Position numbers and translations under genes: made by a program. The notes under the pieces were generated by a model. It did not search any database. It saw only the letters and a list, made by a program, of their open reading frames with translations, and had not been told where the DNA came from. Of a stretch of 64,000 nucleotides of DNA, positions 1 through 12,667 are shown in pieces. Position 1 is the stretch's first letter. Every line of letters starts with the position of its first letter. The stretch comes from Pseudanabaena sp. PCC 6802 (GTDB lineage Bacteria > Cyanobacteriota > Cyanobacteriia > Pseudanabaenales > Pseudanabaenaceae), in NCBI RefSeq assembly GCF_000332175.1, contig NZ_KB235914.1, positions 3,282,868-3,346,867 on the forward strand, read 5' to 3'.

Positions 1-86
1 ATTAGTGTCAATACAAACAGAAACAAGGTGCATTACATTTCATTAATGCACCTGAAAGATTGGCTAATAGTGTTGGAGTAATATAG
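1..86. repeat. hairpin downstream of the 87-470 gene
   Basis: A perfect 10-bp inverted repeat (AGGTGCATTA on the minus strand, about 29-53) with an 8-nt loop lies just past the stop of the small secreted-protein gene. It could be a transcription terminator, although no clear T-run follows, or a degenerate integron recombination site. I could not find the RYYYAAC/GTTRRRY core boxes of an attC around it, so the second reading is weak. Confidence 0.35.
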
Positions 87-470
87 CTATCTGCATTCAA
101 TTACTGTGAAGCGATTAGCACCTTCATTGGAGAAGAAATTAGCTTGCAATTCCCCATCCGTATATCTCTCTATCCATTTCCAATTTATTGTTCGATTTCC
201 CCACCCAAAATCCTGACTTTGCCACTGAGATGCACTTGAATAACGTCTCCAACGACAGAATTGATTAGCAACCTCATTTTGGGCAGGTTTATTACAGCCA
301 TCCTGAAACCTGAAGGAGTTAAGACAAGCATCAATGTACTTCCCTTCAATCTGTGGATTTAAAAAAGTCTCTTTTAGAGGTGCTGCGATAGTAGTGGATG
401 AATTGAGAAAAATTAGAGATACAAAGACTGTAGAAGCTGCAAAAACCTTTGAAGATATTTTCATTGCCAT
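87..470 (-). CDS. small secreted Cys-containing protein, cassette-like
   Basis: I do not recognise the family. The 127-residue product starts with a typical Sec signal peptide: positive residues near position 4-8, a hydrophobic core to about residue 24, and an Ala-rich cleavage region near residue 30. The mature part has four cysteines, which could form two disulfides in the periplasm, and is rich in Trp and Asn. The start codon is 22 nt downstream of a GTTAGAC box (492-498, minus strand) that ends the attC-like stem-loop. That spacing is typical of a gene at the 5' side of an integron cassette. No Shine-Dalgarno is evident, which is common for cassette genes. The role is unknown. Confidence 0.65.
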   Translation of the reverse strand: MAMKISSKVFAASTVFVSLIFLNSSTTIAAPLKETFLNPQIEGKYIDACLNSFRFQDGCNKPAQNEVANQFCRWRRYSSASQWQSQDFGWGNRTINWKWIERYTDGELQANFFSNEGANRFTVIECR

Positions 471-491
471 GACGCATAACTATAATTTGCG

Positions 492-571
492 GTCTAACGG
501 CTTGGGCTTCAGCGGTGGCAAGGGTTTTTGAGTCATTACCAGAGTGTTGAGGCCATCCGCTGCAAGCCCTG
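492..571 (-). other. attC-like recombination site, split by group II intron
   Basis: The plus strand reads GTCTAAC (492-498), then GGGCTTCAGCGG, a 40-nt variable centre, then CCGCTGCAAGCCC and the intron. The two arms pair over about 12 bp with one extra base in one arm, as in the L''/L' boxes of attC sites. GTCTAAC fits the RYYYAAC consensus, and its complement GTTAGAC is a classical R' box. If exon 2 is joined at about 2504, the missing box would read GTTATAC, close to GTTRRRY. The total length of about 86 nt is in the attC range. The site lies between two minus-strand cassette-like genes in the expected orientation. This is a manual reading without a covariance-model test. Confidence 0.5.
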
Positions 572-1070
572 GTGTACGCCCAGCATGGGCGTGAACTAAT
601 GGGGTGAAAGTCCCCTGTAGGAGAACCAGCGTCCAAATGATCAATTTACAGATCCGAGTGACGACCACTACTAGCTTAAGGCAAGAGTGCTTTCGCGAGG
701 AAGTGTTTGAAGGAAGCCGGATAGCAAACCGACGAGCCGACGAACAGAAATGTCATAGAAGGCTGAGACCCCTGGGTGAGTTGGCACAACACAACAAAAC
801 CTCTGGTTCAAGGGGCACAGTAAATGACACGGTTGCGGCGGGACAGTTCACGTTCTTATCTGGGGAGGTCTGTAAGGTTGCGGTTCTAAGAGTAAAGGGA
901 GTCTGAATGAGGTAAGAGCCGGAAACGGTTAGGAAGCCACAGAACCCTAAAGCAAAAAGGACAGCCCACTAAGAGGGAACTCTTGGTGTCAAGCCTTGCA
1001 GAAGTCAGCAGAAGTCATAGTAGTCCAATCCAGGACGAAGGACAGAACATAATTGCCATAAGGAGGAGCA

Positions 1071-2402
1071 ATGAACAACTCAGACGCATCGATGAACCCG
1101 ACCGGGGGAGATGACGGATGGCGTGCTGACATAAAGCCAGCCTTAGACAACCTGATGGCGCGAATATTAGAGCGCAACAATGTGCAACAGGCATGGGGAA
1201 GGGTGAAATCGAACCAAGGAGCAGCCGGAATCGACGGTATGACTATAGGAGATTTCCTCGACTATGCAAGGGAGCATTGGACAGAGATTCGCGCTTCCCT
1301 GAAGGATGGTACGTATCAACCGCAGCCAGTGCGACAGGTAGTAATACCAAAGCCAAGAGGCGGCGAGAGAAAGCTAGGAATACCTTGTGTCATAGACCGG
1401 GTAATCCAGCAAGCCATTCTACAAGTGTTATCGCCAATGTTTGAGCCAGGATTTTCGGACTCAAGCTATGGCAGTCGACCCAAGCGATCTGCCCACGGAG
1501 CAATTCGGCAGGTAAAGTCCGCCATCAAAGCAGGGTATCAAGTTGCGGTAGACATTGATTTGGAGAAATTCTTTGACAATGTAGACCACGACATGCTGAT
1601 GTCCCGCATTGCTCGGAAAGTAACCGATAAGGTACTTCTGGGTTTAATCGGACGGTATCTGCGAGCGGGAGTTATGGTCGGTCACACTTTCGCGGCAACG
1701 GATTGGGGCACTCCACAAGGGTCGCCACTGTCACCGTTGCTCGCCAACATCTTGTTGGATGACCTCGACAAAGAGTTAGAGGCAAGAGGACATCGCTTTG
1801 CTCGCTATATGGATGACTTGGTAATTCTGGTCAAAAGTAGACGGGCAGGGCAGAGGGTGTTGGCTAATATCAGCCGATACCTGAGCCAAAAGCTGAAGCT
1901 CAAAGTAAATCGGCAGAAAAGTCGTGTGGTCAGGACTGACAAATTAGAATTTCTGGGATTTACGTTCCGAGGAATTCGGATTTGGTGGTCAGACCAAGCC
2001 TATCGGGATTTCATACATCGACTGCGGGGCTTAACGTCACGTAGTTGGGGTGTTTCAATGGAGTACCGCATGGAACGATTGAACCGATACTTACGGGGCT
2101 GGATGAACTACTACGGCATTTCCCAGCATTACAGTCCAATTGAGCAGTTGGATGGTTGGTTGCGGCGACGGATTCGCATGTGTTACGGTCAACAGTGGCG
2201 CAGACCTCGCACTCGTATTCGCCATTTGCTTGCTCTCGGAACCAGTAAGCGACAGGCGATTTTGACCGGCATTAGTCGCAAAGGCTATTGGCGGTTGTCA
2301 AAGACTCTGGCAACCCATACGGGAATGACGAATCAGTGGTTACAGCAACAGGGTTGGCTTTCAGTGCGAGAACTTTGGATGAAAGTCCAGGGTTATGCCT
2401 GA
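1071..2402 (+). CDS. ltrA: group II intron reverse transcriptase/maturase
   Basis: A 443-residue LtrA-type protein that helps the intron fold, splice and copy itself into new sites. Visible parts are the N-terminal RT0/RT1 region, RT palm and fingers motifs including the GTPQGSPLSPLLANI block (motif 4), the catalytic YMDD box (motif 5, about residue 245), and the C-terminal maturase X domain with RYLRGWMNYY near residue 340. There is no HNH endonuclease domain, as is usual for group IIC maturases, which prime from replication forks or single-stranded hairpins. The ATG follows a strong AGGAGG. It is complete and not disrupted. Confidence 0.95.
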   Translation: MNNSDASMNPTGGDDGWRADIKPALDNLMARILERNNVQQAWGRVKSNQGAAGIDGMTIGDFLDYAREHWTEIRASLKDGTYQPQPVRQVVIPKPRGGERKLGIPCVIDRVIQQAILQVLSPMFEPGFSDSSYGSRPKRSAHGAIRQVKSAIKAGYQVAVDIDLEKFFDNVDHDMLMSRIARKVTDKVLLGLIGRYLRAGVMVGHTFAATDWGTPQGSPLSPLLANILLDDLDKELEARGHRFARYMDDLVILVKSRRAGQRVLANISRYLSQKLKLKVNRQKSRVVRTDKLEFLGFTFRGIRIWWSDQAYRDFIHRLRGLTSRSWGVSMEYRMERLNRYLRGWMNYYGISQHYSPIEQLDGWLRRRIRMCYGQQWRRPRTRIRHLLALGTSKRQAILTGISRKGYWRLSKTLATHTGMTNQWLQQQGWLSVRELWMKVQGYA

Positions 2403-2435
2403 TTTTCTTGAGGTTTGTTTGCGCGGCGATTATGA

Positions 2436-2496
2436 ACCGCCCGGTGCGGACCCGCATGCCGGGTGGTGTGGGAGGGAAGGGCTAAACACCCTTCTC
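2436..2496 (+). ncRNA. intron ribozyme domains V and VI
   Basis: Domain V (2436-2467): a 9-bp stem ACCGCCCGG/CCGGGTGGT with one G-T wobble, TGCG/CGCA upper stem, GACC loop and a TG bulge. Domain VI (about 2474-2496): GAAGGG/CCCTTC stem with loop CTAAACA. These are the catalytic and branch-point helices of the intron. The branch adenosine should lie in the 3' strand or loop of domain VI, but I cannot assign it. Confidence 0.8.
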
Positions 2497-2535
2497 GACC
2501 CGATTATACGGGTGTCTCACCCAGCCCCTCCCTTC

Positions 2536-2958
2536 TCATTCAACCACCCTTGGTCGGACTTCAAATTCAGACTGTGAGCGAGAAAAACAAGCATCAAACT
2601 CAAAAAGGAAATTAGCCTGTCTTAATATTAAAGGTGCATTGGGGGCTTGAGTCCAGGCAAATGCCAGATTAACCCTCGGAAATGGGGTGATTTGAGCCTC
2701 AACAACGACTGCACGAGCTTCAAAACGCGCTAAATTCCCAGCCAAGATAACCGAAAGATTTTCACTCTCCCAGAGGAAGCCCAGTTGTAGACCCAATTCG
2801 TAGGGCAAAACATTAACACTTGCGCCCGTATCTAGTAAACCTTCGGCGTTTAAGGATCGCCCGTTGAGACTCAGCGTTATAGGCACATATGGCATTCGGT
2901 CAACCATGCCAGGACTGGTGTCAATAATTTTGTAGGGAAATTTTTGGCCGTTAAGCAT
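2536..2958 (-). CDS. retropepsin-like clan AA aspartic protease domain protein
   Basis: A 140-residue protein with the motif LLDTGASVNVLP near residue 42-53, the D-T/S-G active-site loop of single-domain retroviral-type aspartic proteases. Such proteins act as homodimers. They are common in cyanobacterial accessory regions, usually after a small upstream ORF as here, and their targets are unknown. Its start overlaps the stop of the upstream gene by 8 nt (ATGCTTAA), so the two are translationally coupled and probably share one transcript or cassette. It lies next to the 3' exon of the group II intron. No signal peptide is seen, so it is probably cytoplasmic. Confidence 0.7.
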   Translation of the reverse strand: MLNGQKFPYKIIDTSPGMVDRMPYVPITLSLNGRSLNAEGLLDTGASVNVLPYELGLQLGFLWESENLSVILAGNLARFEARAVVVEAQITPFPRVNLAFAWTQAPNAPLILRQANFLFEFDACFSRSQSEFEVRPRVVE

Positions 2959-3169
2959 TCTGTTCTTTTTGCTTTGTCGCCAGAAGACTCATCAAAGTGT
3001 TAGCAGCTTCTGAGCACCCATATGGAGACCATATGGGGTATTCTTGACCCTCGACAAAAAAGTTTACATCTTCTTCTTTCACAAGCTCTGTTGCCAGAAA
3101 TTGCATCAACCGCAGCTTATCAATTTTTGAAAGCTCCTGGATTTGAGACTTGAGTTCAGTCAAAGGCAT
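2951..3169 (-). CDS. small helical protein, antitoxin-like
   Basis: I chose the ATG at 3169 (product MPLTELKSQI..., 72 residues) because a GGAG lies 8 nt upstream. A longer reading from 3241 adds an unlikely N-terminus. The first 30 residues form an amphipathic helix (TELKSQIQELSKIDKLRLMQ) like those of small proteins paired with cyanobacterial toxins or proteases. The gene overlaps the downstream aspartic-protease-like gene by 8 nt. A pair made of a small helical protein and a retropepsin-like enzyme could be a regulator/effector pair, but this rests only on gene arrangement. The function is unknown. Confidence 0.6.
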   Translation of the reverse strand: MPLTELKSQIQELSKIDKLRLMQFLATELVKEEDVNFFVEGQEYPIWSPYGCSEAANTLMSLLATKQKEQNA

Positions 3170-3319
3170 TGATAAAGCTCCATTGCTGAGACTAGAAAGG
3201 GTGAAGATGCAGGGCTGTCGCCTAAAGACAAAGATTAGCACCCACTTATTCTACCAAAAAGCTCTAGCTCACGCTAACCTCAGGATGGTGAAAAACTGAT
3301 TTTGTCTCAAAAAAAGAAT

Positions 3320-3691
3320 TTAACCTTTGTATTTTACCTTCAATTTCATATTGCCTGAACTACCAGCTATCAGTTCAATGGGAAAACCCTCGACATTCGC
3401 TCCTAAGCTCAGCCCTGCTTTTTCAGACATAGTAATCTCAAGTTCATCCACGTCATTTTCTTTGGCGACTCGGATAATTTCAGTAGCTGCTTTTGTCTGC
3501 AACTCAATCTCCTTGGTCACTGCACCAGAAGTCAGAGACTGCACTGCATCTACTAAAAAATTACCAGCTTTCCAATAGAACCATAAAGGAGCTAAAACCC
3601 ATCCATACTCCCACCCATACTTATCAATCAAATCAAATGCTTGTTTTCGACCTTCTGGTGTAGTAACGGCAAATTTTGCAATATTGCTCAC
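3320..3691 (-). CDS. hypothetical protein, first cassette-like gene
   Basis: A 123-residue protein I do not recognise. It has a short aromatic stretch (WEYGWVLAPLWFYWKAG, residues 27-43) that could contact a membrane, a central charged helix, and a C-terminal beta-rich part ending in alternating Lys/hydrophobic residues. There is no signal peptide and no Cys cluster. It is the first gene on the minus strand after the hairpin array and the integrase fragment, the position of the first cassette of an integron. No promoter was identified. Confidence 0.6.
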   Translation of the reverse strand: MSNIAKFAVTTPEGRKQAFDLIDKYGWEYGWVLAPLWFYWKAGNFLVDAVQSLTSGAVTKEIELQTKAATEIIRVAKENDVDELEITMSEKAGLSLGANVEGFPIELIAGSSGNMKLKVKYKG

Positions 3692-3788
3692 TTTGTCCTA
3701 TCCCCTTACTTTGACCATTCTTGTGAAGCCTTCAGTCAAACTAAATCGGTACTTTTAAGTGTTTTTCTTTCATAGGTCTAACTATATA

Positions 3789-4112
3789 TTAAGCCGCACC
3801 TAGCGGTATAGTACTCATACATCTTAGGCTTTTTACCGCAAAATTGCAGTTTAGTACGCATATTTTAATGTTTTGTTGCATATCTACAACTTAGCGTACG
3901 CATTCTGTATCTTTTAGCGCAGATGTGAAGTTTAGCACGCAGAAATTACATGCTTTACCGCGCTTTTGCGGTTTAGTACGCTCATTTTGTATCTTTTACT
4001 TCAGATGTGAAGTTTAGTACGCAGAAATTACATGCTTTACCGCGCTTTTGCGGTTTAGTACGCTCATTTTGTATCTTTATACTGCAGATGTGCGGTTTAA
4101 CATTCTGAATCT
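3789..4112. repeat. array of ~41-bp hairpin repeats with covarying stems
   Basis: About eight consecutive units. The best copies start at 3954, 3995 and 4036, each exactly 41 bp. Each unit has TTT, a 5-bp stem, a 6-nt loop, the second stem arm, then TTTAGTACGC and a 12-nt tail. The stem differs between units but stays paired: ACCGC/GCGGT alternates with ACTTC/GAAGT, and the last copy has ACTGC/GCGGT with one wobble. Outer copies (3789-3953) are more degenerate, and one has lost pairing. The array fills the space between the first cassette-like gene and the truncated integrase, where an integron carries attI. It is not CRISPR, because no spacers separate the repeats. Confidence 0.8.
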
Positions 4113-4133
4113 GGGCACAATAAGTCATATCCT

Positions 4134-4398
4134 ATGCAAGAAAATTCTTCTACTGTATTTGCCATGACAGAAGTGCAGCCGCCTCGCTTACTTGACCAGG
4201 TGCGTCAAGTTATTCGCCTCAAACATATGAGCATAAAAACCGAAGATTCCTACGTCTACTACATTCGAGACTTTATCCTCTATCACAACAAGAAGCATCC
4301 TAGAGACATGGGAGCACCTGAAATCCGGGCATACCTTTCGCATTTGGCGATCGCAAAAAATGCGGCAGCTTCAACCCAAAATGTCGCACGCAATGCAC
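4134..4398 (+). pseudogene. integron-type tyrosine recombinase, N-terminal fragment
   Basis: The first ~88 residues form the core-binding (SAM-like) domain of a tyrosine recombinase. The stretch PRLLDQVRQVIRLKHMSIKT, then SYVYYIRDFI, HPRDMG and AYLSHLA, resembles integron integrases (IntI) more than XerC/XerD. The reading frame is broken at 4399 by an IS5-family element. Joining the flanks after removing the IS and one ACT target copy restores the frame for only a short stretch (ALFALSQWDL, to a stop near 5434). The whole catalytic domain (R-H-R-Y) is missing, so the enzyme is dead. It faces away from the small minus-strand genes, as intI does relative to its cassettes. Confidence 0.75.
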
Positions 4399-4399
4399 T

Positions 4400-5346
4400 A
4401 GACCTCTTGCAGATTAGGTTGAGGTTGAGTTGCCAAAGAACCCCAAGATAGGAAAATATCAGGACATAGCAATAACGAAAAAGCGTCCTGATGATGAACT
4501 ATATAATAGCGCAAACCCTACCTGCTGCACACTTTAAGCGTCGATTTGGTATCGAGACTAATACGTTCAAAGCAATTGTGAAAGTGCTTAAACCAGAGTG
4601 GCGAGCAACGCCAACACCTGGAGCCAAGCCTAAACTCGGACTAGAAGACCGCATATTGGTTGCCTTCGAGTATTGGCGGGAATATCGCACCTACTTTCAC
4701 ATCGCCACTAGTTGGGGCATCAGCGAGTCTACAGTTTGTCGAATAGTGCATTGGGTAGAGGAGACTTTAATCCGCTCACGTCGCTTTCGACTACCTGGGA
4801 AGCGCCAGTTGGTGCGGGGCTTTGGGATACCTACAGTCGCGACGTTGATGTGACTGAAACTCGCATTGAGCGTCCTAAGCGGCACCAACGTGCCTTTTAT
4901 AGCGGCAAACAGAAAGGGCACACGCTCAAATGTCAACTCATAATTGACGCTCTTACTGGGCAGATTATCTGTACGTTTTTCGGCAAGGGGCGACGGCATG
5001 ATTTCAAGCTGTTCAAAGCTTCTGGCATCCATTTCCATCCTCAAACCGAGAGTTTGCAGGACAAGGGTTATCAAGGCATCCAGAAACTGCATCTCTACTG
5101 CCGCTTACCCCACAAGAAACCGAAAGGTGGTCAGCTTACGCCTGAGCAGAAAGCGTTCAACCGCCAACTTGCGCGCCAACGGGTTGGCATTGAGCATGTT
5201 AATCGCCGCTTGAAGATCTTCCGCATCTTATCTGGACGCTATCGCAATCGTCGTCACCGCTTTGGTTTGCGTTGCAATCTAATTGCTGGTCTCTACAATT
5301 TTGAACGCTCTCAAGGCTCCTCAGTTGGCTAATTTGCAAGAGGTCT
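4400..5346 (+). mobile_element. IS5-family insertion sequence
   Basis: A 947-bp element bounded by inverted repeats AGACCTCTTGCAGATTAG (left, from 4400) and its near-perfect complement at the right end (5329-5346). ACT stands on both sides (4397-4399 and 5347-5349), consistent with a 3-bp target duplication. TA or CTA cannot be excluded because the ends are ambiguous. It carries a DDE transposase in two overlapping frames and interrupts the integron integrase fragment. Confidence 0.85.
4491..5332 (+). CDS. IS5-family DDE transposase in two frames
   Basis: The first frame (4491-4853) encodes the helix-turn-helix half (LGLEDRILVAFEYWREYRTY, then GISESTVCRIVHWVE). The catalytic half runs in the -1 frame to 5332 with VDVTET, LQDKGYQG and GIEHVNRRLK supplying the likely D, D and E residues. 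The switch must occur around 4815-4845. Some IS5 subgroups use two overlapping ORFs joined by programmed -1 frameshifting. A TTTGGGA heptamer lies at 4821, but its phase is not the canonical one, so loss of one base from the G-run at 4815-4819 is an equally good explanation. All catalytic motifs look intact. Confidence 0.8.
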
Positions 5347-5433
5347 ACTGTTTGCATTATCTCAATGGGATTTGTCAAGCGTCCGCCAAACCTTCCAGTT
5401 GTTTTCGCCTGCACGATTGCATCAACATCAAAA

Positions 5434-6084
5434 TTAGATTTCACGATCGTCCTCGAAAAGCTTGAATAAAATTATGCCTGCGACAAAGCCGCTGATGTGG
5501 GCGAGGTAGGCTACCCCCGGTTGACCTGGGTTGGACATCGCCGCATAAACTGTTTGCCCCACTAACCAGATGCCCAGGAAAAATAACGCTGGTATCCTGA
5601 TCGTGGTCAGGATGATGAAGATCGGCACCAGGGTCACAATCTCGGCGCGGGGAAAGCGGACGATATAGGCACCCATCACACCTGCGATCGCACCGCTAGC
5701 CCCAATTAACGGGATGCCAGAGCTAGGTGAAAACATGGATTGGGTGATGGCAGCGATCGCGCCGCAAATCAGGTAAAAAATTAAAAATTTCACGCTACCC
5801 AAACGATCCTCAACGTTATTGCCAAAAATCCACAAAAACCACATATTGCCAATCAAGTGCAACCAACTACCGTGTAGAAACTGCGAGCTTAGTAAAGTAA
5901 TGACCTCGCGGTTTGTAAAGGCAAAAAATTCGCGGGGAATAACTGCCCAAGCGCGCAAAAATTGAACGAGTTGGGGGTTGCTCAAACTAATTTGATGCAG
6001 AAAAACCAGAACGTTAACGGCAATCAGCGCATAGACAACCAGAGCCTGCCGCCGCGTAGGGTTGTCATCATAAAGAGGGATCAT
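5434..6084 (-). CDS. rhomboid family intramembrane serine protease
   Basis: A 216-residue membrane protein with six or so hydrophobic segments. The catalytic Ser lies in GASGAIAG and the catalytic His in AHISGF near the C-terminus, the Ser-His dyad of rhomboids. The N-terminal PLYDDNPTRR motif and the loop with a WLH.IGNMWFLWIFG pattern are typical of bacterial rhomboids. It cleaves single-span substrates within the membrane. Its substrate here is unknown. It is divergent from secA, with 129 bp between the starts, so the two promoters share one intergenic region. Confidence 0.9.
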   Translation of the reverse strand: MIPLYDDNPTRRQALVVYALIAVNVLVFLHQISLSNPQLVQFLRAWAVIPREFFAFTNREVITLLSSQFLHGSWLHLIGNMWFLWIFGNNVEDRLGSVKFLIFYLICGAIAAITQSMFSPSSGIPLIGASGAIAGVMGAYIVRFPRAEIVTLVPIFIILTTIRIPALFFLGIWLVGQTVYAAMSNPGQPGVAYLAHISGFVAGIILFKLFEDDREI

Positions 6085-6213
6085 AAAGGGGGATCGTTAG
6101 TGCATTAGTTACTGTAGTTACTGTGGATTAGGTACTATGGGAGTAGAGCAAATTTTTGTTTAATATTTGTTTGATAACTTATTATTTAATACTCCCTGAT
6201 TTCTACGGTAGCC

Positions 6214-9024
6214 ATGTTAAACCTTCAGTCTTTGATCGGCGATCCCAATAAGCGCAAGCTGGATAAGTTTCGTCCCGATTTAGCTTTGATCAATTCCCTA
6301 GAAGCAGACATTAAAGCTTTAAGCGATGAAGAACTACGTGGTAAAACTAATGAATTTAAGCAGCGTCTGGTGCAAGGTGAAAGCCTGGACGATATTTTAC
6401 CCGAAGCATTTGCCGTAGTCAGAGAGGCGGCTACGCGGGTATTGGGGCTGCGCCACTACGACGTGCAAATGTTGGGCGGCATGACCCTGCATAAGGGCGA
6501 AATCGCGGAAATGAAAACTGGGGAAGGTAAGACCCTGGTTGCCACGCTACCCAGTTATCTTAACGCGCTGACAGGCAAAGGCGTGCACATCGTCACAGTT
6601 AACGACTACCTGGCGCGGCGCGACGCGGAATGGATGGGGCAGGTACACCGCTTTCTCGGCTTAAGCGTCGGGCTAATTCAGCAAGCCATGGAACCCATGG
6701 AACGGCAGCGCAACTATGCCTGCGATATTACCTACGCCACTAACAGCGAATTGGGCTTCGACTACCTGCGCGATAACATGGCAACCACAATGGAAGATGT
6801 GGTGCAGCGCCCGTTTAACTTTTGCGTCATTGACGAGGTTGACTCCGTCCTGATCGACGAAGCGCGAACGCCTTTAATTATTTCCGGTCAGGTCGAGCGC
6901 CCCACGGAAAAATATATGGGTGCGGCGGAGATCGCCAAACAGCTAGAGAAAGAAACGCACTACGAAGTTGACGAAAAACAACGCAACGTCATTCTCAACG
7001 ATGATGGCTTTGAAGCAGCCGAAAAGCTGCTCGGCGTTCAAGATTTATTCGATCGCGACAATCCCTGGGCGCACTATGTCTTTAATGCAATTAAGGCAAA
7101 AGAACTCTTCCTCAAAGACGTGAACTATATCGTGCGCGGCGATGAAGTAATCATCGTCGATGAGTTTACGGGGCGGGTGATGCCCGGTCGTCGTTGGAGC
7201 GACGGTTTGCACCAGGCGATCGAGGCAAAAGAGGGAGTTCCAATTGAGAATGAGACCCAAACCCTGGCTTCGATTACTTACCAAAACTTCTTCCTGCTCT
7301 ATCCTAAACTTGGCGGCATGACCGGAACGGCCAAGACCGAAGAAGCGGAATTCGGCAAGATTTACAATCTGGAAGTCACGACCATGCCCACCAACCGCAA
7401 GAGCGGTCGGGTTGACCTGTCAGACGTAGTTTACAAAACCGAGGATGGTAAATGGCGTTCGGTGGCGCTGGAATGCCAGGAAATGCACGAACTCGGTCGC
7501 CCCGTTCTGGTGGGCACGACCAGCGTGGAAAAGTCCGAGCTGCTGTCGCGGTTATTGACCGAACTGAAGATTCCCCACAACCTGCTCAACGCTAAGCCAG
7601 AGAACGTGGAACGCGAATCGGAGATCGTGGCGCAAGCCGGACGGAAGGGGGCAGTGACGATCGCCACGAATATGGCAGGTCGGGGTACGGATATTATCCT
7701 GGGTGGTAATGCTGACTATATGGCACGCCTGAAGGTGCGGGAATTCTTTATGCCGCAAATCGTGCGACCGGATGACGATGAGGACATGGGGGCAGGACAA
7801 CTGCTATTCCCCAATCGTCCCACTGCCGGTCAGGGGTTTGACCCTAACGGGGCGGGCGGCAAGAAGCGCAAGACATGGAAAGCCTCCGATAGCCTTTTCC
7901 CCTGTCAAATTTCCAATGATGCCAAGGCATTGCTCAAAGAGGCGGTTGACTATGCCGTCAAGACCTTAGGCGCGCAGAGCCTCACCGAACTGGAAGCCGA
8001 TGATATGCTGGCAGTTGCAGTGGAAAAAGCACCCACCGACGATGTGGTAATTCAAAAGCTCCGTGCGGCAGCTACGCAAATCAAGCACGAGTATGAAAGC
8101 CTCACCAGCAAAGAACACGAAGAAGTTGTCTCCCTGGGTGGATTGCATGTCATCGGCACCGAGCGTCACGAGTCCCGCCGCATCGATAACCAGTTGCGCG
8201 GTCGCTGCGGTCGTCAGGGCGACCCCGGTTCCACCCGTTTCTTCCTCAGTCTGGAGGACAACCTGATGCGCATTTTCGCTGGCGATCGCGTTGCCGCCCT
8301 AATGGATGCCTTTAAGGTGGAAGAGGATATGCCCATTAGCTCCGGCTTGTTAACCAGAAGCCTGGAGGGGGCGCAGAAAAAAGTAGAAACCTATTACTAC
8401 GACATCCGCAAGCAGGTATTTGAATACGATGAGGTGATGAACAATCAGCGGCGCGCCATCTATGCCGAGCGGTTTAGGGTGCTGGAGGGGCAGGATCTGC
8501 GTGATCGCGTGATCGAATACGCGGAGCGCACGATGGACGATATCGTCAATGCCTACGTCAATCCAGATTTGCCACCGGAAGAGTGGGATTTGACCAGCAT
8601 GGTGAATAAGGTAAAAGAGTTCGTAAATCTTCTTCAGGATTTAGAGCCAGCACACCTGGACGACATGTTTATGCCAGAGATGCAGGCATTCCTGCGCGAA
8701 GAAGTGCGCCGTGCCTACGAAATCAAGGAAGCTCAAGTCGATAGCCTCTCACCTGGATTGATGCGTCAGGCCGAGCGCTTTTTCATCCTCCAACAAATAG
8801 ATACTCTCTGGCGCGAACACCTGCAAGCCATGGAGAGCTTGCGCGAATCGGTAGGCTTGCGCGGCTACGGCCAGAAAGATCCGTTGATCGAATACAAGAG
8901 CGAAGGCTACGAGTTATTCCTGGGCATGATGACCGATATTCGTCGCAATGTCGTCTATTCTCTGTTCGAGTTCAATCCGCAACCACAACCGCAAACTACG
9001 CAGATAGAAGCTGAGTTTGTTTAG
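6214..9024 (+). CDS. secA: preprotein translocase ATPase SecA
   Basis: The motor that drives unfolded proteins through SecYEG at the plasma and thylakoid membranes. At 936 residues it has the family's usual length. NBD1 shows Walker [12 protein letters not shown] (about residue 103) and [19 protein letters not shown]. The preprotein cross-linking, NBD2 ([32 protein letters not shown]) and helical scaffold regions follow in order. Like other cyanobacterial SecA proteins it has an insert in NBD2 (about 520-610) and lacks the C-terminal zinc-binding SecB-docking motif. The gene is complete and stands alone. Confidence 0.98.
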
Positions 9025-9159
9025 TTAGCAGGTGCAGGGATTTGGGGGTTGGATGGTTGTAAATCTTCATCTCAATTCCCAATTCCTATATGCAGGTAAA
9101 CACATGAGATAAACACATCAGATAAACACGTCAGGTAAAATCATTCAGGAGGTGAGATT

Positions 9160-9777
9160 GTGGCTATTGCTCAGACTGTTCCACCTGGTTCGATCCTGGA
9201 TCGGGCAAAATTTTTCCTTACTTTAGATGAGTATCGATCGCTTGAGGAAACCTCTGAGGAGCGACACGAGTACCGTAATGGGGAGATATTTGCAATGTCT
9301 GGAGGTTCGGAAGCGCATAGCGCGATCGCTAGCAATCTATTAATTTATCTGGGGTTCCTGTTGAGGGAAACGGATTTTCGTTTGTATAACAGCGATCTGC
9401 GGATCTGGATTCCTGAATTTCAGTGCGGGACGTATGCGGATTTGACGATCTGTAATGGGAAACCAGAATTTAACGGCGATCGCACCGACGAAATTCTCAA
9501 TCCTATATTGATTGCTGAAGTTCTCTCCCCGTCTACAGAAGCCTACGATCGCGGTAAAAAATTTAGGAAATACCGTTCGTTACCTAGCTTTTGTGAATAC
9601 CTGCTCATTAGTCAAACTGAACCCTACGTCGAGCAATATTACAATCGCGATCGCGATAAAGATCGGCATTGGCAGTTACAAATCTACGAACACCTGGAGC
9701 AGTCAATCTCTTTACACAGCCTCAACATAGAAATTTCCACAACTGAAATTTACCGTCGTATTAGTTTTCAGGAATAA
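9160..9777 (+). CDS. Uma2 family (restriction-endonuclease-like) protein
   Basis: A 205-residue DUF820/Uma2 protein with a PD-(D/E)XK-like fold. Visible family motifs are the N-terminal LTLDEYRSLEETSEERHEYR, the central IPEFQCGTYADLTI with the conserved Asp, and ILIAEVLSPSTEAYDRGKKF with the E-x-L-S-P signature. Such genes are highly multiplied in cyanobacteria, and no clear biological target is known. The start is GTG at 9160, supported by AGGAGGTGA at 9148-9156. A short repeated motif (AAACACATCAGATAAACACG type, 9098-9131) precedes the gene. Confidence 0.85.
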   Translation: MAIAQTVPPGSILDRAKFFLTLDEYRSLEETSEERHEYRNGEIFAMSGGSEAHSAIASNLLIYLGFLLRETDFRLYNSDLRIWIPEFQCGTYADLTICNGKPEFNGDRTDEILNPILIAEVLSPSTEAYDRGKKFRKYRSLPSFCEYLLISQTEPYVEQYYNRDRDKDRHWQLQIYEHLEQSISLHSLNIEISTTEIYRRISFQE

Positions 9778-9912
9778 TTATGTCGGCATGGATAAAGGAG
9801 TTCCTGCATCAGATATTGTCTTAGGTTTTCATTCTCCGTTCAAACGTCAATTTAGTGGATGTGCGATCGCATAACTGGTTAAAAATCTGGAGTTATCAAG
9901 CGAGGGACGATA

Positions 9913-11022
9913 GTGCCTGAAACGGGAAGTGACGATCGCCAAACATATAAGCAAGTCTGCTTGCAGGCAACGGCGTATTTTTCTAGCGGTCGGTTAGCGG
10001 AAGCAACGACTGCCTGTCGCCTCGCAATCGATATCGATCCCAATTCACCGGAGGCATATGCGATTCAGGGTGATATTTGCCAAGCTCAGCAGCAGTTTGA
10101 CGAGGCGATCGCGGCATACTCGCAAGCATTACAATTCCAGCCGAATGACGATTTAGTTGCTAAAGTTTCTAGCAATCTAGGCGATGCTCTCTATAACGTT
10201 AATCGTCGCTTAGAAGCTCTGTCTCAATATGAGAAAGCGATCGTCCTGCAACCCGATGCGGTGAGAGCTAATTGGATGTTGGGATGTATTGCCGAGGAGC
10301 AAGGCTGGATCGAGATTGCACTCCAGTATTACCGCAAGGCAATGACGCTCGATCCGGCATTTTTTACACCGCAGTCCCACGTCAGCGTGGGGAAGCTTCT
10401 GCAAGAGCGAAATTTCTATACTGAGGCAGCTAATTTCTTTAACACCGCATTGCGGCTGCAACCGGACTATGCCGACGCTTACCATGCTATGGGCAATTTG
10501 CTGTTAGCGCAGGGTGATGTGGAAGCAGCATCTCAACTCTACGATCGAGCGGAGATGGTGGAAATTGACCTGATTACAGCGAAGCAATATAACGATTTGG
10601 GCGTGGCTTGCATTAATCAAAATAAACTCGATCTGGCGATCGCGCATTTTCAAAAAGCGATTCAAATTAAACCCGACTACGCCGATGCCCACTGCAATCT
10701 CGGTAACACTTTCCTACAGCAGCACAACCTGCGCGATGCAATTATCTGCTACCAAGAAGCCCTCAACATCGATCCCAATTTCGAGGAGGTTTACTATAAC
10801 CTGGGCACCAGTCTGGCGGAACTGAATCGATTGGATGAGGCGATCGCGTTTCTCCATGCTGCGATTACCGTCAATCCCAACTTTGCCGATGCCCATTACA
10901 ACCTTGCCAGCGCCCTGGTTAAAATGAATGAGAGGGATTTAGCACTGATGGCTTATCAGCGTGCGATCGACCTACGCCCTGACTTAGTTCAAACCCATTC
11001 CAATTTAGGTTTCGATTTATGA
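9913..11022 (+). CDS. tetratricopeptide repeat protein, C-terminus possibly truncated
   Basis: A 369-residue protein made almost wholly of about ten TPR units (pattern A.Y.LG......G....A...Y..AL...P), a scaffold for protein-protein contacts. The GTG start follows GAGGGACGATA. The last repeat breaks off after THSNLGFDL. The DNA at the stop (GATTTATGATTTGTGAC) resembles the end of the dispersed repeat found at 42121-42230, so a repeat insertion may have cut the gene. No signal peptide is seen. The partner is unknown; TPR proteins of this type in cyanobacteria often assist photosystem or pilus assembly. Confidence 0.85.
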   Translation: MPETGSDDRQTYKQVCLQATAYFSSGRLAEATTACRLAIDIDPNSPEAYAIQGDICQAQQQFDEAIAAYSQALQFQPNDDLVAKVSSNLGDALYNVNRRLEALSQYEKAIVLQPDAVRANWMLGCIAEEQGWIEIALQYYRKAMTLDPAFFTPQSHVSVGKLLQERNFYTEAANFFNTALRLQPDYADAYHAMGNLLLAQGDVEAASQLYDRAEMVEIDLITAKQYNDLGVACINQNKLDLAIAHFQKAIQIKPDYADAHCNLGNTFLQQHNLRDAIICYQEALNIDPNFEEVYYNLGTSLAELNRLDEAIAFLHAAITVNPNFADAHYNLASALVKMNERDLALMAYQRAIDLRPDLVQTHSNLGFDL

Positions 11023-11056
11023 TTTGTGACAGCAATCTCTCCATAATTGCCAGGGG

Positions 11057-11087
11057 GTAGGGGCAGGCACGGGGGCACTGCCCCTAC
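11057..11087. repeat. GC-rich palindrome, GTAGGGGCAG type
   Basis: Inverted arms GTAGGGGCAG and CTGCCCCTAC surround an 11-nt centre. A close copy lies at 41944-41981, and a related form lies in the kdpB-kdpF gap (18776-18825). It is a non-coding dispersed repeat. Confidence 0.7.
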
Positions 11088-11116
11088 AAGACTGTACGTT
11101 CTCTTGCGAAAATCTC

Positions 11117-11230
11117 ATACCAATTTAAACAGTAAGCAAGACAGATCGAACGGGGGCAAGGGGTTTCACCCCTTCGTAGGGGCAACGCCCCTACACCCCC
11201 ATCTGTAACCCAAACAATTTAAATTGGTAT
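11117..11230. repeat. MITE-like repeat with ATACCAATTTAAA ends
   Basis: Perfect 13-bp terminal inverted repeats (ATACCAATTTAAA / TTTAAATTGGTAT) enclose a 114-bp GC-rich, self-complementary element. Together with the palindrome at 11057 it fills the gap between the TPR gene and the broken ATPase gene. No coding capacity is seen. Confidence 0.75.
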
Positions 11231-11288
11231 CATTATGCGCGAATTACTGTAATCGATCGCCCGGTTGGGGTTGCGTGCGTTTCTGTTT

Positions 11289-11471
11289 TCAAACGACGCG
11301 ATGGAGAAATGCCATCAATACCAAATGAGGAGCGATTTCGGGGTAGGAGGCGCTCTTGAGCAACGCTTCGCCGTGCTGGAGCCAAAAGGACAGAAACGCA
11401 TCGAGTAACGCATCGGTATTCAGTTCGCCCCGCTCGTTCAGCCAGGTGGGACTGATGATGGGCAAGCTGTC
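11289..11471 (-). pseudogene. C-terminal fragment of AAA-like ATPase gene (distal piece)
   Basis: After the ISKra4-type insertion the frame of the 12668-13603 gene resumes: DSLPIISPTWLNERGELN, LLDAFLSFWLQHGEALL and APHLVLMAFLHRVV, ending at a TGA. Removing the IS and one 8-bp duplicate joins GSQ to DSLPIISPTW with no frame change. The family normally continues beyond HRVV into a PD-(D/E)XK nuclease-like domain, which is absent here. The gene was therefore cut at this end as well. Confidence 0.75.
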
Positions 11472-12667
11472 GGGAGCATCTCAGTTTTGCAAGGCAAGGT
11501 TAAGAGAGCCATTAAGGTAAGCAGAACGGTGTTTGAGGACTTGTGGCACATTATCACGGTTCCATTGAGCGCCAGAGATTTTGATGCGTCTAGCGATTTG
11601 CTTAACAGCAGATTCCACTGCGCCAGAACCAATAGAGCAAATCTGCTCGGTTTGGAAATACCAATAATCAGGAATACGATGGCGATGCTTGTGCAGATAA
11701 GCAATAAAATTGATGCTCTGAGGACTAGCTAAGTGATTGAGCTCAGCAATAGCTGCAGTCACATTACCCCGCCACAAAAAAGCTTCGACCCCAGTCAAAA
11801 GTTGAGCTGTAGCCTCAATTTTATGCAGGTTTTCCACCAAATGGAACCAGTCCAAGATTTCATAGCGACTATCAGGTATAGAGATCTGGGCAATAATATT
11901 CCAAATCCCATCATGTCCATCCCCAATACAGGTAACCATATCTGCTAAAGGCTGTCGATTTACCCAGTCTGTTAAGGCAATGTTATCTTGAAATGTGGCA
12001 AATATGGCTTGTCCATGCAAGTTCACAGCTTTATAGTCCTTCCACTCACTTGGCTGTCCAAGTGGCGTGCGCAGTCTGATTCTGCCTCCATCGACACTTA
12101 ATTCCTCGACCGACTCTTCTACCTCTAGGGGGCTAAATTCATGGCGATGCACCAGGCGCTGTTGTGTACTGCGCGATATTTGCACTCCCATCAACATGGC
12201 TAAGTCTTTGGCGGCTTGTTCGTAGGATACATTCGCACTCAAGATCAGGCTACATCTTTCCACATACGGGCTCACCTGGCTATAGGGGGCTACTTTGAGC
12301 TTCTGCGCTTGCTTTTGCGTGAGGTGGAGCTGTCCGATGCTGCTTTGCACTCGCCTGCGGCGTCCTGCTTCTGTGCCCGTAACTGTGCGGATAAAAACTC
12401 CCTATTTCTGGGCTGACATGTTCGAGGATTTGCTGCCGCACAGCGATTTCGATCCCTTCCAAGCTGGTTAGTTGTTCCGATGGTGTATTCTGATAAAGGA
12501 TGGCGGCAATAGCTTGAACGTGCGCTTGCATTTCTTTTTCCTGCTCTGGAGTCATGGTTGCTCTCCTTGGGGTTGGTTTCTCGTATTCCTATCTTCTGAT
12601 TTCTTCCCCCTTTTGGCTACCCATCTATATTAAGCATTATTACTCAGCGCAAAGTTGAGATGCTCCC
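11472..12667 (-). mobile_element. ISKra4-type insertion sequence with 8-bp target duplication
   Basis: A 1196-bp element with imperfect terminal repeats GGGAGCATCTCAGTTTTGC (left) and GGGAGCATCTCAACTTTGC (right end, complement). The direct repeat AAGCTGTC stands on both sides (11464-11471 and 12668-12675). It sits inside an ATPase pseudogene. It encodes a transposase with one frameshift. Confidence 0.9.
11481..12555 (-). pseudogene. ISKra4-family transposase, frameshifted
   Basis: The N-terminal frame (from 12555, MTPEQEKEMQAHVQAIAAIL) and the main frame (to 11481, with SVDGGRIRLRTP, CIGDGHDGIW, ILDWFHLVENLHK and GSGAVESAVKQIARRIK) belong to one protein. They are separated by a +1 shift at a run of five T (12397-12401 region). 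With one T fewer the sequence reads through as GSFIRTVTGTEAGRR. Catalytic Asp and Glu motifs are present in the main frame, so only the shift stands against activity. Confidence 0.8.

Follow-up and report, generated by a model that had tools for sequence, protein, structure and literature searches.

Arrays of inverted box pairs at attI sites of cyanobacterial integrons as candidate accessory integrase-binding sites

According to the excerpts of published work cited here, attI sites are read by the integron integrase as double-stranded DNA, by sequence, via L and R boxes and sometimes via accessory sites, and this reading is described as poorly known (PMC4792948). The accessory sites of attI1 from class 1 integrons are the integrase-binding repeats DR1 and DR2 beside the core L and R boxes; they favour the attI1 x attC reaction and are termed topological filters in the excerpts of PMC8946536 and PMC8191803, with two direct repeats and ~65 bp given for attI1 in that of PMC4792948. 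Binding of IntI1 to attI1 involves monomers as well as dimers and is cooperative with attC (PMC2668188, excerpt). The cited part of PMC8191803 has DRs missing from most attI sites and perhaps arising upon mobilisation, and attIA of the Vibrio cholerae chromosomal integron is described there and in the excerpt of PMC8946536 as lacking such repeats. A semi-conserved attI was reported in archaea, in an excerpt that also mentions integrons in Cyanobacteria (PMC9668308). Iterated attI arrays from cyanobacteria are described in none of the open-access titles and beginnings of abstracts that we covered. Crossover in integrons follows the GTTRRRY/AAC rule. Core sites of the XerCD dif type consist of inverted 9–11-bp recombinase arms around a short centre.

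Here we consider an iterated array in the window, i.e., the whole analysed stretch of 64,000 nt from Pseudanabaena sp. PCC 6802 (G000:C5:3282868-3346867; genome size 5.62 Mb). Eight units of ~41 bp, composed of inner boxes with 16–17-bp centres, occupy positions 3782-4105 (no strand is assigned to the array or its units), between an attI core (3775-3797) and a broken intI gene (4134-4400). A sequence-only reading had proposed a tandem ~41-bp array in the attI position, between the first cassette and the integrase start, and both the repeat and its place are confirmed: TRF yields scores of 149 and 340 for the 41-bp and 82-bp periods, respectively, and the self-similarity of the region exceeds that of dinucleotide shuffles with z = 12.7, none of the 200 shuffles attaining the observed value. 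In the coordinate parse, unit 0 (3782-3816, centre AAGCCGCACCTAGCGGT) overlaps the attI core and is followed by unit 1 (3827-3859; stem ACCGC/GCAGT, one mismatch), unit 2 (3867-3899; GTTG/CAAC, with a variant R box), unit 3 (3907-3940; stem AGCGC/GAAGT, unpaired), unit 4 (3948-3981; ACCGC/GCGGT), unit 5 (3989-4022; ACTTC/GAAGT), unit 6 (4030-4063), and unit 7 (4071-4105; ACTGC/GCGGT, with a T.G pair). The stems of units 1 and 3 were also assessed in the stem re-pairing test described below; unit 6 repeats unit 4 letter for letter, constituting an 82-bp duplication seen by TRF as well. The three stems quoted in the sequence-only reading are thus all present, ACCGC/GCGGT at 3948 and 4030, ACTTC/GAAGT at 3989, and ACTGC/GCGGT at 4071.

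The attI core on the plus strand, GGTCTAA|C TATATA TTAAGCCGC when read toward intI, starts with GGTCTAAC (3775-3782) and comprises a boundary between 3781 and 3782, a 7-bp centre (3782-3788), and an R box (3789-3797); the other strand reads G^TTAGACC. From the comparison with relatives, we infer that the cassette boundary in the window lies at AA|C (G^TTRRRY). Across 11 loci from the family of the window, identity rises from 0.27–0.43 on the cassette side of the core to 0.74–1.00 on the array side, and it is exactly at AA|C that variable sequence gives way to conserved. As this switch coincides with the integron crossover, the array belongs to the integrase side, and cassettes enter at its outer end. 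The location expected of an integron attI, on the start-codon side of intI, is observed both in the window (3775-4105) and in the relatives' loci.

The intI gene next to the array is represented by its 5' part (4134-4400, plus strand), and the product of this fragment corresponds to the N-terminal part of integron integrases (TIGR02249, 7.5e-20; PF13495, 4.5e-24); comparison with MTEPQPPRLL of L003, one of the relatives, suggests that the start is probably at 4164. The gene is interrupted by an IS5-family insertion (4401-5345, plus strand; identified by ORFs, profile search, and sequence) with the ends, determined by eye, GACCTCTTGCA ... TGCAAGAGGTC, the transposase being split over two frames (4491-4853 and 4712-5332). 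3' of the insertion, at about 5377-5403, there is a short intI-like remnant, KRPPNLPVV. As the cis integrase is dead, any present use of the array would need another integrase. The first cassette ORF (3320-3691, minus strand) reads away from attI and has no match in Pfam or NCBIfam; the ORFs left of the array are on the minus strand, in cassette-like orientation, and farther left lies a group II intron, whose reverse transcriptase maps to 1071-2402. In the region 490-2520, this intron apparently resides inside an attC-like site, with GGTCTAAC and a long stem (CTTGGGCTTCAGCGG / CCGCTGCAAGCCC) ahead of the intron start GTGTACGCCC. Group II intron matches (689-854 and 965-1043) were the only ones obtained in the Rfam scan of window positions 1-12000, the array having no match.

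Besides the window's integrase, the same genome encodes two intact integron integrases and one more broken one, each with its own tandem ~40-bp inverted-repeat units upstream, in different letters. L003 is the nearest relative of the window IntI by the N-terminus, and its units are also the most similar to those of the window; unit letters at L002 differ again. The array DNA of the window yields one match in its own genome, and the only one of the 38 genomes of the order to contain it is the window's own. As a separate observation, the same ABC-transporter ATPase start lies downstream of both intact intI genes (L002 and L003), suggesting a duplication that spanned the intI 3' end. Two further arrays of this genome, at G000:C5:2385483 (L334) and G000:C5:2616475 (L366), show no integrase homology within 1.5 kb, so at least six attI-like arrays are present, four of them intI-linked.

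The same architecture was found upstream of intI in other cyanobacteria. From the cassette side, the layout is RYYYAA|C, 6–8 bp, box WTANNCRGA, and then iterated units of an A/T-rich gap of 3–7 bp, box TCYGNNTAW, a centre of 16–18 bp, and the inverted box WTANNCRGA, with the period of 40–42 bp; the 9-bp box is TCYGNNTAW in most lineages, and the consensus of the centres is N3-CCC-N5-GGG-N3. This box-pair model, drawn from the first 39 loci, identifies 201 units upstream of 88 cyanobacterial intI genes (including the window itself, L006, and at least two duplicate records, L220 = L229, both 58,514 bp, and L060 = L240, both 3,782 bp), compared to 5.5 units expected from shuffles; the array recurs beside related integrases. 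At least two units are present in 56 of the 88 loci and at least three in 40, while the 32 loci with fewer than two model units include the window's own lineage, where boxes are different. Among loci fetched after the model had been defined, 33 of 49 have at least two units. Successive units are spaced by 40–42 bp in 87 cases out of 135, the centre is 16–18 bp long in 192 of the 201 units, and the L-box letters T1, C2, G4, T7, and A8 each occur in 183–200 of the 201, this near-invariance resembling that of a protein site. Boxes of the window lineage, which differ in their letters and were parsed by hand, follow the common plan: L box ACATGCTTT, centre of 16, R box TTAGTACGC, and gap of 7.

Loci with at least two units span at least 12 family labels. 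It is very improbable that the arrays are neutral tandem repeats without function: unit number does vary, and the 82-bp duplication in the window is recent, but the architecture and period have been retained in at least 12 families despite the divergence of letters, and are tied to attI.

Integron integrase matches were found in 19 of 37 genomes of the window's order (16 above the cut-off), 23 of 386 in the phylum sample, and 28 of 42 and 35 of 388 in two further orders; the upstream regions of cyanobacterial integrases in these genomes mostly show the same layout. Named cyanobacterial relatives with an array are Nodosilinea sp. FACHB-131, an uncultured cyanobacterium, and Kovacikia minuta, whose plasmid pB is the one cyanobacterial record among the matches listed in the plasmid search. 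In viral contigs, an exact-word scan gave 32 stretches; IntI relatives were gathered from 80 loci. Outside cyanobacteria, the box-pair model finds 11 units in 68 intI loci; units following this plan occur singly in L062 and L066 (Anaerolineales) and in L083 (Acidobacteria), and L074 (Chloroflexota) has two of them. Self-repeats with z > 3 are observed upstream of intI in 26 of 38 cyanobacterial regions (36 of 45 loci plus L060 and L061, the rest having no integrase start or too little upstream DNA), compared to 8 of 68 other regions (from 78 non-cyanobacterial loci, the rest being shorter than 290 bp upstream or incomplete at the start). Some cyanobacterial intI genes have no recognisable array, namely family f20 (L046, L047, L049, L050), L024, L025, L038, and L260.

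A permissive scan for L and R boxes flanking the crossover found AAC, centre, and R box in each of the 56 loci that have two or more units, the centre being 7 bp in 40 of them, although at least the picks in L222, L225, L231, L248, and L264 look false, and in L040 and L247 an inner unit, not the core, was picked. Array boxes run on into the crossover triplet in a minority of units (AA|C in 44 and G|TT in 64 of the 201).

Like attI1, these sites appear to have accessory repeats beside the core; unlike it, the arrays comprise not direct repeats but up to eight inverted box pairs with the ~41-bp period, extending up to ~330 bp, and are found in cyanobacterial integrons both on chromosomes and on plasmids. 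With attIA they share the adjacency of attI to intI and the crossover triplet, attIA having no such repeats. The attI core here resembles the dif-type sites in its inverted arms and short centre, but the array differs in having centres longer by ~10 bp and iterated units. Inverted boxes with TTRRRY-like letters are also reminiscent of attC (59-be), which, however, is recognised as folded strands, while the array units keep sequence rather than structure.

The last point bears on the proposal of the sequence-only reading that the stems covary and that their pairing is selected, the units being folded single-strand hairpins akin to mini-attC and bound by structure. The units are indeed inverted repeats, and folding z is below –3 in 10 of 38 cyanobacterial regions compared to 2 of 68 others. 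When left and right stem halves are re-paired, the observed pairing is reached in 320 of 5000 shuffles for the window array, in 351 of 5000 for the window with L003, and in 160 of 5000 for four related arrays together; in the 22-row alignment of the window lineage, 79.1% of cells are paired compared to 76.4% in shuffles (51 of 500), with 14 of 500 shuffles reaching the covariation score and 4 of 500 the number of further pair types. The covariation signal in the window lineage is weak, though not nil; in the window, unit 3 is unpaired, unit 1 has a mismatch, and the two ACCGC/GCGGT copies stem from the recent 82-bp duplication. In the related arrays L258 and L263 there is no covariation signal, and the stems are mostly mispaired.

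Selected pairing would make halves of the same unit match better than those of neighbouring units, and this is not seen in 56 other arrays (191 units), where true halves form 3.487 pairs and halves re-paired within arrays, 3.467 (358 of 1000 shuffles; for energy, 284 of 1000); the variable positions of the L and R boxes in the same units show no symmetry (1807 of 2000). Complementarity of the centres, 3.42, exceeds that in base shuffles (2.88; 0 of 500) but equals that with halves exchanged among all loci (3.41; 234 of 500), hence being real, yet a fixed consensus symmetry. In 19 units of one family (A3), paired cells are above shuffles (6 of 500) and the covariation score weakly so (27 of 500), but the latter, 0.110, does not surpass the 0.119 of the slid control, and nine of the pairs are disrupted in 2 to 16 of the 19 units. 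A signal obtained with a loose threshold (0 of 500 on pairs; for the window with L003, 26 of 500 on pairs and 116 of 500 on energy) involved many background picks and is absent from the strict 191-unit set.

Covarying stems and selected pairing were therefore not borne out: homologous arrays lacking stem covariation are seen in L258, L263, and the TCYG-type arrays, and covariation as a general property was rejected after four tests (within-array re-pairing, window-type arrays, the 22-row alignment, and the same-family units). Compensatory change with structure kept and sequence not, as in attC, is likewise not observed in the array units beyond the weak window-lineage signal. The mini-attC variant, suggested by the TTRRRY-like letters, was dropped because of the unit length and the absence of structural conservation, the units being ~35 nt and the attC-like sites in L272 and L276, 84–129 nt; a crude attC-like scan gave candidates in 4 of 10 regions, none of them in the window, with one pattern recurring as coding-like sequence (L272/L277). 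We thus regard recognition of the units as folded hairpins as quite unlikely. Still less credible is a transcribed array acting as a structured RNA leader: it lies where the cassette transcript could start, but lacks an Rfam match and general covariation. The symmetry rather looks like that of paired recognition boxes read on double-stranded DNA by two protein copies.

Which protein this might be is suggested by the core. The core R box matches boxes of its own array at 6.716 positions of 9, compared to 6.437 for swapped arrays (48 loci; 0 of 2000), and, with one locus per each of 15 integrase clusters, at 6.569 compared to 6.297 (22 of 2000). This fits one protein reading both, although local duplication could add to, or even account for, the likeness within a locus. 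Since the array boxes resemble the core R box, they are most likely bound, in double-stranded form, by the cognate IntI. Alternatively, the boxes could belong to a different protein and would then be operators of a repressor or nucleoid protein for divergent intI and cassette promoters; the array does fill the divergent intergenic region, its helical phasing would fit any cooperative binder, and some arrays have no detectable intI. Still, the box letters covary with the core R box, which the integrase itself must read, and arrays of the same genome with other boxes belong to other intI lineages, making such operators unlikely.

The arrays without intI were found with a three-box pattern, which matches in 17 of 386 genomes of the phylum sample and 17 of 37 of the order (1 and 0, respectively, for the backward control). 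Homology to integrases is present within 1.5 kb (E <= 0.01) at 22 of the 48 distinct array sites and absent at 26, so that the association between array and intI is not exclusive. Among these orphan sites the core is retained in some (L323, L328, L334, L343, L352, L354, L360, L371, L372), and a stub of the integrase start is seen in L328 and, by eye, in L341, L347, L359, L362, L371, and L372; neither was found in L317, L318, and L321. We read the orphan arrays mainly as decayed integrons with attI left, and their use in trans is possible. L280 has a full attI array (5092-5350) adjoining a stub of intI, MEHRPRKLLEQVRKSF and then a stop, about 16 codons long; an intact intI ~2.7 kb away has no recognisable array of its own.

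Taken as a whole, we consider it fairly probable that the attI is enlarged, with the array as its accessory half, in which phased accessory IntI sites load the integrase beside one core, despite the orphan sites, several with a core or a stub, the intI genes lacking a recognisable array, and the 32 loci of 88 below two units by the box model. Its cassette-side end would be the recombination core, with the L box, 7-bp centre, R box, and crossover at AA|C, and from the core to intI there would follow two to eight box pairs, L and inverted R 16–18 bp apart, every 40–42 bp (about four helical turns). As the array centre is about 10 bp, or one turn, longer than that of the core, the boxes of a pair would face the same side of the helix without being aligned for strand exchange; the pairs would be bound yet not exchanged, most array boxes also having no AAC triplet. 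By loading IntI cooperatively beside the single active site, the array may favour attC x attI insertion, and since it fills the space up to intI, its occupancy would probably also repress the intI promoter; both the loading and the autoregulation we infer from this arrangement. More tentatively, and in our opinion less likely to be true than false, up to eight sites resembling the core, kept silent in recombination by an additional helical turn and by loss of the crossover triplet, would polymerise IntI beside one live core, switching between autorepression and cassette capture, with the orphans docking in trans. Of the recombination or binding platform suggested by the sequence-only reading, then, a probably recombinase-binding platform at the attI of an integron intI is retained, and selected stem pairing is dropped.

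Some loci contain another potential regulatory site, the cyanobacterial-type LexA box, which we take to be RGTACNNNDGTWCB. Such a box (AGTACATCTGTTCT etc.) is located between the array and intI in L060 (= L240), L230, and L236, about 39–59 bp ahead of the conserved LLD codon of intI; the four strict matches represent three distinct loci after removal of duplicate records, and the relaxed form occurs in six loci compared to 0.7 expected. In the excerpt of PMC3108266, only the beta/gamma-proteobacterial LexA motif was found upstream of intI; the cyanobacterial-type boxes suggest that some integrons of cyanobacteria, too, may be under SOS control.

The sequence-only reading knew of no described element of this form, which holds roughly for the iterated form; accessory sites of attI as such are known from DR1 and DR2 of attI1 (PMC8946536, PMC8191803, excerpts). 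What is new is the large number of inverted accessory box pairs at an attI, iterated and widespread, which suggests that integrons can have a far larger landing platform than those usually studied. In the cited part of PMC8191803, accessory repeats are held to be rare and perhaps acquired by mobile integrons. An iterated form of attI found throughout a phylum, in integrons that are mostly chromosomal, allows direct tests of what accessory sites do. The array also provides a sequence signature for locating attI, orphan sites included, and the cyanobacterial arrays extend integron biology past Proteobacteria.
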